DNA of 58,723 bases from Muribaculaceae bacterium (lineage in GTDB: Bacteria; Bacteroidota; Bacteroidia; Bacteroidales; Muribaculaceae): positions 1 to 58,723 of the forward strand of contig JAIDQZ010000043.1 in assembly GCA_029062005.1 (NCBI GenBank). Direction: 5' to 3'. The translations under genes and the position numbers were made by a program. Numbering within the stretch: the stretch's first letter is position 1; each line of letters begins with the position of its first letter. Below are positions 1,337-4,776 of the stretch, one piece after another. Under the pieces are notes generated by a model, which did not search any database, was not told where the DNA came from, and worked only from the letters and a program-made list of their open reading frames with translations.

Positions 1337-1939
1337 TCAGGTGCATAAACAGCCCGACAAAAAGTTAAAAAAATTGCGTTGTTTATGGTTGTCTGATACA
1401 AGATCCGGACGGCGCAGCTCTTCTAAATGGCTTTTGGAATAGTATGCGACACCATTCTCCTTTTTCGATGGTATGGTGTGACGATAAGCGTATGCCCTTA
1501 TTGCCGATGCTTTCATTCCAAATTGTTGCTCGACCTCGGCAGTCGTAAGCCACTCGGTAATGTGTGATGTGTCGACTGCGATGCCAAAGTGGGCATCGAC
1601 ATCAGGTCTGTTAAAATAGATTCGTCCGGCGATTTTGCAGGTACGTATACGGTAACGCTTGGTGCAGGTATACAGCCAGCCCTGACCGATCTTGAATTTC
1701 GACATTACTTCTTCGGAGGTATAATGCTCCATAGGCGCGTTGTCGGTCGATGTCTCCTTACGTGGCTTGGATGTGTTCTTGGACGGTCGTGCCACCGGCA
1801 CTACGCGCTCGTATGGGCATTGCGCCAAAAGAGACTCTATATCGGCCCGACGAATGAGCGACATACGGGCGCTTAACCTTGATGCCCTGAGCCGGCCCTG
1901 GGCAACGAGCTTATAAACGTACTGCCGGGTACACCCCAT
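1337..1939 (-). CDS. Triple excisionase-type HTH DNA-binding protein
   Basis: From ATG 1939 the protein has 200 residues with three HTH_17/MerR-like modules: residues 1-40 (CTRQYVYKLVAQGRLRASR, then RRADIESLL), about 70-115 (YTSEEVMSKFKIGQGWLY, then FNRPDVDAHF), and about 128-178 (WLTTAEVEQQFGMKASAIRA, then YSKSHLEEL). This type is found as excisionases or regulators in integrative elements. ATG 1939 cuts into helix 1 of the first module: the frame stays open to 2056 and encodes 'FINAVEPLIDLQNQEYLSFS', a normal-looking start of that module, but contains no ATG, GTG, TTG or CTG. The real start may be non-canonical or a 1-base indel may separate it from an overlapping frame starting at ATG 2114. 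The leader carries phased repeats. Confidence 0.75.
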   Translation of the reverse strand: MGCTRQYVYKLVAQGRLRASRLSARMSLIRRADIESLLAQCPYERVVPVARPSKNTSKPRKETSTDNAPMEHYTSEEVMSKFKIGQGWLYTCTKRYRIRTCKIAGRIYFNRPDVDAHFGIAVDTSHITEWLTTAEVEQQFGMKASAIRAYAYRHTIPSKKENGVAYYSKSHLEELRRPDLVSDNHKQRNFFNFLSGCLCT

Positions 1940-2045
1940 AAGTAGGGCTGCCTTTGAAAAAGAAAGGTATTCCTGATTTTGAAGGTCTATAAGCGGTTCG
2001 ACCGCATTGATGAAATCGTTGCGACGCTTTTTGCGCCTTCCGCGT

Positions 2046-2161
2046 GTAAACCGAAGTCAACCGTTGACAACCCATGTCAACTACTTGCACGAAATCACGA
2101 TTCCAAAACCTCATTTACCGCTGCTGACAACAGTTGTAAACCATCGTAAACCGATGTAAAC
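2046..2161. repeat. Eight phased 10-bp-spaced GWMAAC repeats
   Basis: Plus-strand hexamers GTAAAC 2046, GTCAAC 2056, GACAAC 2066, GTCAAC 2076, then GACAAC 2126, GTAAAC 2136, GTAAAC 2146, GTAAAC 2156. Consensus G-[A/T]-[A/C]-A-A-C (minus strand GTTKWC). All eight starts share the same phase modulo 10, including across the 50-bp gap, so all would lie on one face of the helix. They lie between the minus-strand promoter at 2221-2252 and the HTH gene, partly over its N-terminal reading frame. Best guess: cooperative binding sites for the HTH protein (autoregulation or excision complex); iterons of an origin are an alternative. Confidence 0.85.
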
Positions 2162-2220: not shown

Positions 2221-2252
2221 CAAAAATATGCCTAAAAACGGCTACTTCCAAA
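2221..2252 (-). promoter_or_regulatory. Promoter of the HTH gene
   Basis: Minus strand TTTG (2252-2249), 20 bases, TATTTTTG (2228-2221). Predicted start near 2216 places the phased repeats about 55-170 nt into the leader. Confidence 0.6.
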
Positions 2253-2346
2253 TACTACCCACCAAAGTGTTAAATTCCATAATCCCCTGCAAATCACGCC
2301 TATTCTACTCGTTATTCCTAATTATTCCCTGTCTTTCCCTTCCCTC

Positions 2347-2564
2347 TAGATACAGTTGTAGAAAGTATCCTTACCGATTGAATTGACGGAATTTGGTATA
2401 TTTACCGAGGTCAGGCTGCTGCATCTTTCGAAAATATAGTCACCTATTGACGTGACTGCGTTCGGTATATTTATTGAAGTCAAGCTGTAACATCTGCAGA
2501 AAGCTCTTTCGCCGATTCGGTGCTCCCTGAATGTACATACCTCCTCCGTGAATCCTATTTGGCA
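2347..2564 (-). pseudogene. BspA-like leucine-rich-repeat remnant
   Basis: A minus-strand frame, open from the stop at 2567-2565 to a TAG at 2349-2347, reads as LRR_5 (BspA/TpLRR) repeats: '[19 protein letters not shown]', '[20 protein letters not shown]', '[16 protein letters not shown]'. Spacing and consensus (IG..xF..C.SLTS..IPNSV) match surface LRR proteins. There is no start codon and no signal peptide, and it ends abruptly, so it is a fragment of a lost gene. The rest of 2165-2598 holds only the HTH promoter, a pyrimidine-rich stretch near 2285-2346 and the GH92 promoter. Confidence 0.75.
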
Positions 2565-2589
2565 TTATGCCGGAAATTCCCTAATTTTG
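2559..2589 (+). promoter_or_regulatory. Promoter of GH92 gene, near-leaderless
   Basis: TTG(G) 2559-2562 and TAATTTTG 2582-2589, about 20 bases apart. The predicted transcription start is only a few bases before ATG 2599. Confidence 0.55.
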
Positions 2590-2598
2590 CAATAGATT

Positions 2599-4776
2599 AT
2601 GCGTAAGATTTTTTACTTCATATTGGCTTTATCGTTTATGGCGGGATGTTCGTCACGTACCGTCGAGGAGTCATTTGCCGGCAAAGTTGATCCGTTGATC
2701 GGCTCCGGCGGTCACGGTCATGTGTTTGTAGGGGCGAGCGTCCCTTTCGGGATGGTGCAGGTAGGTCCCACCGGAGTCCCTCAGGGTTGGGACTGGTGTT
2801 CCGGATATCATCGTAGCGATTCTACAGTTATCGGTTTTTCTCACACACATCTTTCCGGCACCGGATGCGGCGACCTCCTCGATATAACCGTAATGCCCGT
2901 CGTAGGTACAGACCTCACATATGCGCGAGGTTCCGTCGACTCTATAGGATCGGGACTTTGGTCATATGCCGACCGAAATCATGAGACAGTCCGTCCCGGA
3001 TATTACTCTGTTCCCCTTACCCGCTATGGGATTCTCGCTGAGATGACATCAACGTCTCGTGTAGGATTTCATCGCTATACCTTCCCAGACTCCTGTGGAG
3101 CGGCTGTTGTCTTTGACCTTCGCGACGGAGGGAATTGGGATCGTCCTGTAGATATACACATGGAGCCTGTCGGCGACTCTCGCATTCAGGGCTGGAGACA
3201 TTCCACCGGTTGGGCTGACGACCAGAAAGTGTATTTCGTTGCGGATTTTTCCTGTCCGTTCAGTAAATTTGAGATCAAGGATGAGGATGGATTGTTCGGG
3301 CGTGCTGACTTCGGAACGCTCTCATCCTCTCCGTTGCTCGTTAAGGTCGCGCTTTCTGCTGTCTCGGTTGAGGGAGCAGCTGCCAACATGGCGGCGGAAC
3401 TGCCCGGGTGGGATTTCGACGGGACTGTCATGGCTGCCGACCGTGCGTGGAATGATCAGCTAAGGCGTATCCGTATCTATGGAGCTTCGCCGGAAGAGGA
3501 AAAGATATTCTACACGGCTTTATTCCACACGATGATAGCTCCGTCGGAATTCAGTGATGCAGGAGCCTCATATCCGGAATATACCACTTTCTCGCTGTGG
3601 GACACGTACCGCGCTGCCATGCCACTTCTCAGCATCACGCAGCCCGGCAGGTATGCAGATATGATCAATACTATGATTCAGATATGCCACCGGCAGGGAC
3701 GCCTTCCCGTGTGGCATCTCTGGGGATGTGAGACCGACTGTATGGTTGGTAATCCGGCGATCCCTGTGGTTGCCGACGCTATTGTGAAAGGAATCCCGGG
3801 CATAGACAGGGAGAGTGCCTACAAAGCCCTTCTCACTACTGCCATGGATACCACAAGGGGCAACGGACTTCGGCAGAAATACGGCTATATTCCCTTTGAT
3901 CTTCATGCGGAATCGGTGGCTTACGACATGGAATATGCACTTGCCGACGGCGCTGTGGCTCAGGCAGCCCTGGCGATGGGGGACTCGGCGTCATACCGAT
4001 ATTTTTCCGCCCGTAGCCGTTCCTACAGGTATTACTTCGACCCTTCTACGGGCCTTGTACGTGGCAAAGACAGTCACGGTTGTTTCCGTAACCCGTTCCG
4101 ACCGTTCGATGCTTCCCACCGAGCCAACGACTATTGTGAGGGTACGGCATGGCAATACACATGGCTTGTGCCGCACGACATCGAGGGTCTTCGTGACTGT
4201 TTCGGCTCCAATACTGAAATGCTGGCTAAACTTGACTCCCTCTTCACTGTCGAAAGTCCGCTTGAAGGCGACGATATCTCGCCCGATGTCTCCGGACTTA
4301 TAGGGCAGTATGCCCACGGCAACGAGCCCGGTCATCATACTGCGTATATCTACACCATGCTTGGATATCCCGATAAGACGGCAGAGAAGGTAAGGGAAAT
4401 ACTTACCACGATGTATTCTTCCGCTCCTGACGGTATTTGCGGCAACGAGGATGTAGGTCAGATGTCGGCATGGTATGTTCTTTCAGCAATGGGACTCTAT
4501 GAAGTGGAGCCGGGGAGCGGTCTCTATTGGTTTGGATACCCTCTTTTCCGAAAGACTGAGCTGGATGTTCCAGGTGGCACTTTCAGGATCATATCTGAAG
4601 GAGGATCGGCAGCCGCTCCCTTGCACCTCGTCAAAGTTACCCTCGACGGAAAGGAACTCAAGGAAAGATACGTGCGATATGCCGACATAATGCGTGGCGG
4701 AGAATTGAAGTTTGAATGGCAAACCCTGCCTTCCGGGCGTGAAAAACGATTTGGTCGTCTCCCGAAAAATCCGTAA
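2599..4776 (+). CDS. GH92 alpha-1,2-mannosidase-like lipoprotein
   Basis: 725 residues, the usual GH92 size. Signal peptide with lipobox 'MAGC' (Cys16), so probably anchored to the outer membrane. Early 'DPLIGSGGHGHVFVGASVPF' and 'HTHLSGTGCGD' are GH92 N-terminal motifs. The catalytic domain has 'HGNEPGHH' at 573-580, with Glu576 at the general-acid position, and 'GNEDVGQMSAW' from 615, whose Asp618 is the base candidate. GH92 enzymes are calcium-dependent, inverting exo-alpha-mannosidases acting on N-glycan or yeast mannan mannose. It stands alone between the accessory region and rpoN; its stop codon is part of the rpoN promoter. Linkage specificity is not provable from sequence alone, but the Glu supports ordinary mannosidic substrates. 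Confidence 0.93.
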   Translation: MRKIFYFILALSFMAGCSSRTVEESFAGKVDPLIGSGGHGHVFVGASVPFGMVQVGPTGVPQGWDWCSGYHRSDSTVIGFSHTHLSGTGCGDLLDITVMPVVGTDLTYARGSVDSIGSGLWSYADRNHETVRPGYYSVPLTRYGILAEMTSTSRVGFHRYTFPDSCGAAVVFDLRDGGNWDRPVDIHMEPVGDSRIQGWRHSTGWADDQKVYFVADFSCPFSKFEIKDEDGLFGRADFGTLSSSPLLVKVALSAVSVEGAAANMAAELPGWDFDGTVMAADRAWNDQLRRIRIYGASPEEEKIFYTALFHTMIAPSEFSDAGASYPEYTTFSLWDTYRAAMPLLSITQPGRYADMINTMIQICHRQGRLPVWHLWGCETDCMVGNPAIPVVADAIVKGIPGIDRESAYKALLTTAMDTTRGNGLRQKYGYIPFDLHAESVAYDMEYALADGAVAQAALAMGDSASYRYFSARSRSYRYYFDPSTGLVRGKDSHGCFRNPFRPFDASHRANDYCEGTAWQYTWLVPHDIEGLRDCFGSNTEMLAKLDSLFTVESPLEGDDISPDVSGLIGQYAHGNEPGHHTAYIYTMLGYPDKTAEKVREILTTMYSSAPDGICGNEDVGQMSAWYVLSAMGLYEVEPGSGLYWFGYPLFRKTELDVPGGTFRIISEGGSAAAPLHLVKVTLDGKELKERYVRYADIMRGGELKFEWQTLPSGREKRFGRLPKNP

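Follow-up and report, generated by a model that had tools for sequence, protein, structure and literature searches.

The question raised by this locus is why eight short repeats, set one helical turn apart, lie in the leader of a gene for a helix-turn-helix (HTH) protein. The window, i.e., the whole stretch of DNA that was analysed, is 58,723 bp long. We propose, at a probability of roughly 0.6, that the repeats form a docking array for a TnpA-type protein at the attachment (att) end of an integrative element.

The Repeat Array

A preliminary description of the window listed eight G[A/T][A/C]AAC hexamers, starting at bp 2046, 2056, 2066, 2076, 2126, 2136, 2146, and 2156, and all eight are there. 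On the gene (minus) strand, the unit is GTTKWC followed by 4 bp, and the array consists of two clusters of four units. Cluster 1 extends from 2126 to 2161 and reads GTTTAC, GTTTAC, GTTTAC, GTTGTC; cluster 2 extends from 2046 to 2081 and reads GTTGAC, GTTGTC, GTTGAC, GTTTAC. GTT is found in 8/8 units, and base 4 is G in four and T in the other four. On the strand opposite to the repeats, the best hexamer set has two sites on one phase.

The tandems at 2126 and 2046 are the top two period-10 four-unit tandems in the 58,723 bp, each with a stacked score of 0.83. In 100 shuffles of the window in 200-bp blocks, the mean period-10 maximum was 0.68 and the highest 0.81. The stacked score alone is not extreme, since other periods score higher elsewhere in the window (0.92 for periods 7 and 9, 0.89 for period 8); the period-10 result is. 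In the 3.06-Mb genome, GTTKWC-N4-GTTKWC-N4-GTTKWC has five matches, against one for the reversed pattern, and the five fall at two loci only. One is the window array, and the other, with the same motif, lies directly upstream of a full-length homologue on another contig (C72).

The expectation that the hexamers would be conserved while other leader bases vary is upheld by the near relative L033, which amounts to one independent whole-array comparison. Between it and the window, 0/48 hexamer bases, 1/24 spacer bases, and 9/44 gap bases differ (Fisher p 0.005); L034 gives the same counts. The proposed continuity of the 10-bp phase across the gap is true of the window, where the clusters are spaced by 80 bp, but it is not conserved. 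The spacing is 80 in L003 (equivalent to L033), 79 in L004, L135, L139, and L140, 78 in L175 and L178, and 101 in L182. With spacings of 78–80 or 101 bp, phase across the gap is no rule in the Tn4555 clade.

Just before cluster 2, at 2086–2093 (minus strand), is a TTCGTGCA box matching the (T)CGTGsA/GTGGA box that precedes the array in many relatives. Further upstream, TTTG...TATTTTTG at 2221–2252 (minus strand) resembles a Bacteroides-type promoter. The position of the repeats between this promoter-like sequence and the coding region agrees with the preliminary description, as judged from sequence only. In the family scan, promoter-like sequences just upstream of the array gave 28/142 strict matches and 0 on the reverse strand. 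The sequence TGTATCTAGA (gene strand) at 2345–2354 is a probable element boundary: the similarity to L033 and L034 stops near here, and a TGTATTTAGA-like counterpart marks the element edge in relatives. In the Tn4555-like clade, the edge TGTATtTAGA ends an LRR-like reading frame (..AFxGCI-stop) in the window (2345–2600, minus strand), L175, L178, and L182; by its pattern, this frame is presumably of the BspA/LRR_5 type. In L034, the element edge ends a different gene.

The Gene behind the Array

The window gene (1340–2035, minus strand) is a truncated gene of the tnpA type. The preliminary description took it for a triple-HTH gene, but members of its clade have four modules and a zinc-ribbon-like N-terminus. 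The window copy is without that N-terminal stretch, the fourth HTH module, and an ATG, GTG, or TTG before module 1. Domain matches place HTH_17 module 1, with recognition helix TRQYVYK, at 1826–1972, and the HTH_17-like modules 2 and 3 at 1586–1729 and 1415–1555, all on the minus strand. The suspected link with an HTH_17/Xis-like protein stands: the protein matches HTH_17 (E 2.3e-20) and TIGR01764 excise (E 5.3e-09), and module 1 is the module that tracks the array motif. The window protein is 53% identical over 224 residues to TnpA, which serves for targeting in the Bacteroides transposon Tn4555. By sequence, then, the gene is homologous to TnpA over the HTH modules, the trait that marks the TnpA family.

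Three near relatives, L032, L033, and L034, all from metagenome-assembled genomes labelled Porphyromonadaceae or Muribaculaceae, share the window leader, L032 only from within the array. In each, a start codon comes after the leader, and then a stretch with the cysteine pattern CxxC...CxxxC. It is called zinc-ribbon-like because of this pattern, and Pfam gives it a sub-threshold treble-clef match only. L032 and L033, which extend past module 1, have four HTH_17 modules and, about 150 bp further, a tyrosine integrase; that of L033 has an arm-binding domain. A frameshift behind the missing start codon of the window gene was considered and rejected, as the alignment with the three relatives shows absent sequence. 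Given the truncated gene and the failure to find an integrase in the 58,723 bp, the window locus looks like the remnant of a TnpA-family member with an intact array rather than a complete member. Adjoining the remnant, the plus strand from 85 to 1124 encodes a DUF3800 protein and then a 191-residue protein without a confident family; both are possibly element cargo.

The Array as a Family Trait

An array lies ahead of most homologues of the gene. A profile made of the zinc-ribbon-like stretch and the first module matched 162/392 Bacteroidales genomes and, among genomes of the window's own family, 144/297 (weak partial matches counted). Counting identical first 120 residues once, there are 160 members with distinct N-termini, 159 with enough upstream sequence. 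In the 250 bp before the ATG, the best tandem period between 7 and 15 is 10 in 150/159 homologues, versus 15/159 inside genes and 16/152 at −500 to −250. Among 58 loci collected later it is 10 in 52. The preliminary description was right about the one-turn phasing.

Altogether, 143/159 leaders pass p ≤ 0.02 against dinucleotide shuffles. Of these, 122 arrays are within 130 bp of the ATG; 105 are in the ..AC register, with 17/122 falling outside it, and 98 of the registered arrays have at least three units. At some loci (e.g., L020, L069, and L086) the automatic choice took another upstream tandem, and these were omitted from later counts, even though arrays of the GTTGAC type are present close to the start codons of L020 and L069. 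Units mostly read N1-N2-N3-N4-A-C plus 4 bp, and 28 different hexamers occur among the 98 arrays. The commonest unit number is four (69/105 registered arrays). In the registered arrays of four-module loci, the third unit reads ACG more often than the other units do; unit positions within the array may therefore not be equivalent.

Fuller relatives have a zinc-ribbon-like start, from one to seven HTH_17 modules, and an adjoining tyrosine integrase. Where 600 bp or more of downstream sequence is available, the integrase follows in 131/134 loci. Where the upstream sequence reaches 450 bp, 108/153 loci have the gene behind a stretch that resembles the mnmE (trmE) 3′ end, and in the Bacteroides finegoldii annotation mnmE is directly ahead of a tnpA-type gene. 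A GTGGA box immediately preceding the array is found with 16/19 three-module and 49/72 four-module proteins, as against 1/12 one-module and 5/17 two-module proteins. The extra modules may make contact with this box, but the module groups also differ by descent. Several contigs (G520:C7, G513:C13, G540:C10, G497:C5, G636:C1, and G515:C1) carry two to four members tens of kb apart, which suggests piled-up elements. The families of G057 and G186 yielded no new places.

The loci share ancestry, so the counts are not those of independent events. Partial answers to this are a set of 60 module-1 sequences with identities below 80%, prediction from far-lineage nearest neighbours, and a blind set.

A Two-Residue Code

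In the set of 60 sequences, the strongest protein–DNA mutual information (z 12.5) joins position 17 of the module to base 4 of the unit. Next come position 21 with base 2 (z 11.0) and position 23 with base 8 (z 10.6), whereas module 2 reaches 5.1 at most. A structure model (mean pLDDT 77, pTM 0.34) puts position 17 at residue 2 (Q73) and position 21 at residue 6 (K77) of the recognition helix of module 1, which extends over residues 72–80. The rules can be read from the 98 arrays. Arginine at 17 goes with C4 in 18/18 arrays, alanine with G4 in 14/14, proline with TT in 10/10, and glutamine with TG in 11/12, while arginine at 21 goes with G2 in 37/42. By its helix, TRQYVYK, the window protein falls in the class that goes with GTTGAC arrays; the glutamine rule fits half of the window units, given the even division of their base 4 between G and T.

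For 74 loci, N1–N4 were predicted from far-lineage neighbours. The recognition helix scored 0.77 and the rest of module 1 0.60, against a baseline of 0.32; the module-2 helix scored 0.37, modules 2 onward 0.48, and the integrase 0.47. Residues 2 and 6 are not the whole story, since the position 23–base 8 value is high and the non-helix residues of module 1 predict at 0.60. Module 1 is likely the domain that reads the repeats, as the repeat sequence changes together with two of its residues.

The code predicts arrays outside the set from which it was derived. The rules were fixed before new loci were collected. Of 58 new loci, 47 had tandems at p ≤ 0.02 (mononucleotide shuffles in 50-bp blocks here, dinucleotide-preserving shuffles in the training set). 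There were 44 within 130 bp and 36 in the AC register with at least three units. In 21 of these 36 arrays, partly from other orders, module 1 was less than 90% identical to the training set (46–90%). For these 21, 34 of 36 predictions were right, i.e., 15/16 and 19/20, where permutation gave means of 4.6 and 12.1 and reached the observed values in 0/5000 trials. The failures were L248 (T17 with TGAAAC) and L235 (R21 with CTGCAC). The 15 closer arrays gave 14/15 and 12/12.

Natural Exchange of Array and Module 1

The array motif is tracked by module 1 and not by the integrase or modules 2 onward. Across four-module loci, 61 of 72 of which entered the Mantel test, array similarity has a partial rank correlation of 0.52 with module 1 (reached in 0/500 permutations) and −0.06 with modules 2 onward. 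With the integrase, a weak residual link is left, at 0.10 (reached by 1/500). Where module 1 is similar and modules 2 onward are dissimilar, arrays are similar (0.88, 52 pairs; background 0.69). In the converse case, array similarity is 0.69 (82 pairs), equal to background. Likewise, N1–N4 agreement is 0.30 in 55 pairs with integrases at least 90% and recognition helixes at most 50% identical, and 0.93 in 33 pairs with integrases below 70% and helixes at least 80% identical. Modules 2 onward co-vary with the integrase (identity correlation 0.81).

Array and module 1 are exchanged as one block. L039, L134, L147, and L149 have integrases 96–100% identical and modules 2–4 97–99% identical, yet their first modules are only 25–43% identical, and their arrays read GTTGAA, TGGAAC, TGAGAC, and TTTTAC, respectively. 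When the DNA of L039 is compared with that of L147 and L149, identity is 0.97–1.0 over the 200 bp that precede the array. It falls to 0.30–0.57 over the array, module 1, and the linker that comes after it, and then returns to 0.83–0.96. The L039/L134 pair shows the same mosaic, except that the 30 bp immediately upstream of the array are 0.63 identical. The mosaic is also found in L077/L107/L117, L009/L110, L007/L021, and L011/L012, with the zinc-ribbon part more similar (0.6–0.7); in L011/L012 identity recovers already in the linker. In L007/L008 the flanks have diverged too, and the pattern is blurred. Because the motif follows module 1 and the two are exchanged as one block, array and module 1 are, on sequence evidence, a swappable address cassette. 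At L071 (G578:C27), a TGATAC-class array precedes a protein with the glutamine, GTTGAC-class helix; either array and module 1 have truly been recombined here, or the assembly was possibly misjoined at the contig end.

Position of the Array at the Att End

The first unit is 200–204 bp from the att sequence in 53/78 mnmE loci, while the distance from the array end to the ATG varies from −1 to 73 bp. With similar flanks removed (<75%, n = 29), the att-to-array distance keeps a 10-bp phase (R 0.48, p 0.0013), and the att-to-ATG distance does not stand out (p 0.13). The phase weakens as redundancy is removed, with R of 0.61, 0.48, and 0.47 for 48, 29, and 15 flanks. Each element in six 40-kb stretches has a single array, on the integrase/att side; the G515 stretch has one further tandem, which is part of the other element there. 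A second att copy was found in none of the six stretches within 40 kb (one copy in four stretches, none on the plus strand in two). A role at the att end is favoured because the distance and phase between att and array are kept and the distance between array and ATG varies.

About 64–76 bp before the array, mnmE loci such as L137, L146, and L060 have an 11-bp two-copy direct repeat of the TTTGTACC/TTTGTTGC type. In the att-to-array stretches, lag 11 is best in 39/89 and lag 10 in 31. The 11-bp repeats are candidate integrase arm sites.

Proposed Role and Its Rivals

The proposal is as follows. One protein molecule would place its first winged-HTH module on each 10-bp unit, and recognition-helix residues 2 and 6 of that module would read bases 4 and 2, respectively. 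Some four molecules would form a head-to-tail row along a single DNA face, close to the att site at which the integrase presumably acts. By analogy with BldC, Xis, and Apl, neighbouring molecules would be one helical turn apart and touching. The array would thereby bring TnpA and, via its other modules, the integrase to the element's own DNA. Modules 2 onward probably work with the integrase. As general target selectors they are a weakened idea, because one-module members also sit at mnmE ends (15/18 of those with enough upstream sequence). Repression of the tnpA-int transcript may be a by-product of docking. Points against this proposal are the L071 mismatch, the 17/122 arrays out of register, the half fit of the glutamine rule in the window, the weakening of the att-to-array phase, and the promoter-like sequences just upstream of arrays, which would suit an operator as well.

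The main rival turns this by-product into the whole function: module 1 would bind the array and repress the tnpA-int transcript, and the array would have no part in recombination. This is the less likely reading. Where promoter-like sequences are found, as at 2221–2252 in the window, they precede the array and the start codon follows it, and Apl and RdfS are described as regulators of promoters as well as of att. An operator alone sits poorly with a fixed att-to-array distance and a variable distance to the ATG, although the flanks share ancestry, and with the description of tnpA as a targeting gene. It is far less probable that the units are arm-type sites for the N-terminal domain of the integrase; we give this little credence. 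The integrase does have an arm DNA-binding domain and the array is near the att site, but integrases at least 90% identical go with unrelated motifs when the helix differs (0.30, 55 pairs), and the partial correlation with the integrase is merely 0.10. Neither the correlation nor the pair tests found the site sequence to follow the integrase, and the separate upstream 11-bp TTTGTACC-type repeat, with its lag winning at 39/89 loci, is a better candidate.

Equally hard to credit is the version of the preliminary description, in which one polypeptide spans three consecutive repeats, its successive HTH modules sitting on successive units. Loci do have several modules and several repeats, and the commonest class pairs four with four. 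Yet unit number does not track module number: for example, one module goes with six units, two with 4–5, three with 4–5, four with four, and seven with four. Further modules thus do not simply occupy further units. Moreover, only module 1 tracks the motif, with the module-2 helix at 0.37 against a background of 0.32. Exchange of array and reader together also recalls phage immunity regions, in which site and reader are exchanged together. The cassette might then be an immunity or incompatibility device, the resident protein shutting off newcomers with the same array, and G520 has two elements whose integrases are 97% identical and whose cassettes differ. We nevertheless think this very improbable. 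The arrays of 17 co-resident pairs, a small sample drawn from a hand-made genome list with four loci represented by loci of the same N-terminus, agree at 0.43 versus 0.36 when permuted, with two identical hexamers versus 1.0 expected, and identical copies coexist in G552 and G481.

We lean, then, towards the docking array, and beyond it towards the broader view that integrative elements of Bacteroidota carry a modular DNA address made of a phased 10-bp array, a two-residue winged-HTH code, and cassette exchange. If so, exchange of the cassette would re-address the recombination complex to its own element while integrase, target site, and other modules stay constant, and the code would be simple enough for an array to be predicted from protein sequence alone. 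The family offers about a hundred natural protein–array pairs with a readable code and with module swaps on a constant background. The readable code, the natural swaps, and the blind prediction together make three questions testable: how direct-repeat winged-HTH assemblies choose DNA, how a Tn4555-type targeting protein recognizes its own element, and why cassettes are exchanged. Predicted binding sites can also be proposed for many integrase-adjacent genes annotated merely as 'helix-turn-helix' or 'excisionase family'.

Comparison with Known Systems

Tn4555 is the nearest described system. Its TnpA resembles the fuller relatives in having a zinc-ribbon-like start, four HTH modules, and a gene directly before the integrase, and its tnpA leader has two GTTKWC-type clusters, as does the window. 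Unlike Tn4555, the window copy is truncated and without an integrase. The gene order in Tn4555 is tnpA, integrase, tnpC, and an excisionase-family gene; given this separate downstream gene, the window gene is not filed as a recombination directionality factor (RDF). According to a review (PMC5704250), deletion of tnpA makes the insertion pattern of Tn4555 essentially random. The accessible portions of the open-access literature on Tn4555 gave no TnpA binding site or code.

As for target, SGI1 is reported to insert at the 3′ end of trmE (mnmE). The target gene end is common to SGI1-type islands, which belong to Gammaproteobacteria, and 108/153 loci here.

Foldseek aligns individual modules with Pukovnik Xis (TM 0.83) and with BldC in its DNA-bound form (TM 0.82–0.84), at E 0.025–0.34; the top ranks are long, poor alignments, and only single-module matches were used. 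BldC, lambda Xis, Pukovnik Xis, 186 Apl, and RdfS are described as binding direct repeats one helical turn (9–11 bp) apart, head to tail and cooperatively. In these descriptions, Apl has low sequence specificity and RdfS no consensus. The arrays described here differ: each has a clear motif, which varies between elements and follows two helix residues. BldC is reported to make contacts through Lys26 and Arg30; in the structure model, module positions 17 and 21 appear to be spaced like this pair, and the fold also matches. Unlike BldC and the winged-HTH RDFs, TnpA-type proteins have extra modules, and Tn4555 has its separate excisionase gene.

A code of comparable form is known for the MerR family, in which recognition-helix residues 1, 2, and 6 are named as the most important (PMC5045206); here, residues 2 and 6 stand out. 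The accessible open-access literature gave no description of the arrays, the code, or the cassette exchange. The binding mode itself is of a known kind. The MerR sites in PMC5045206 are two half-sites of dimers, unlike the tandem units of the present family with their natural module swaps and blind test.
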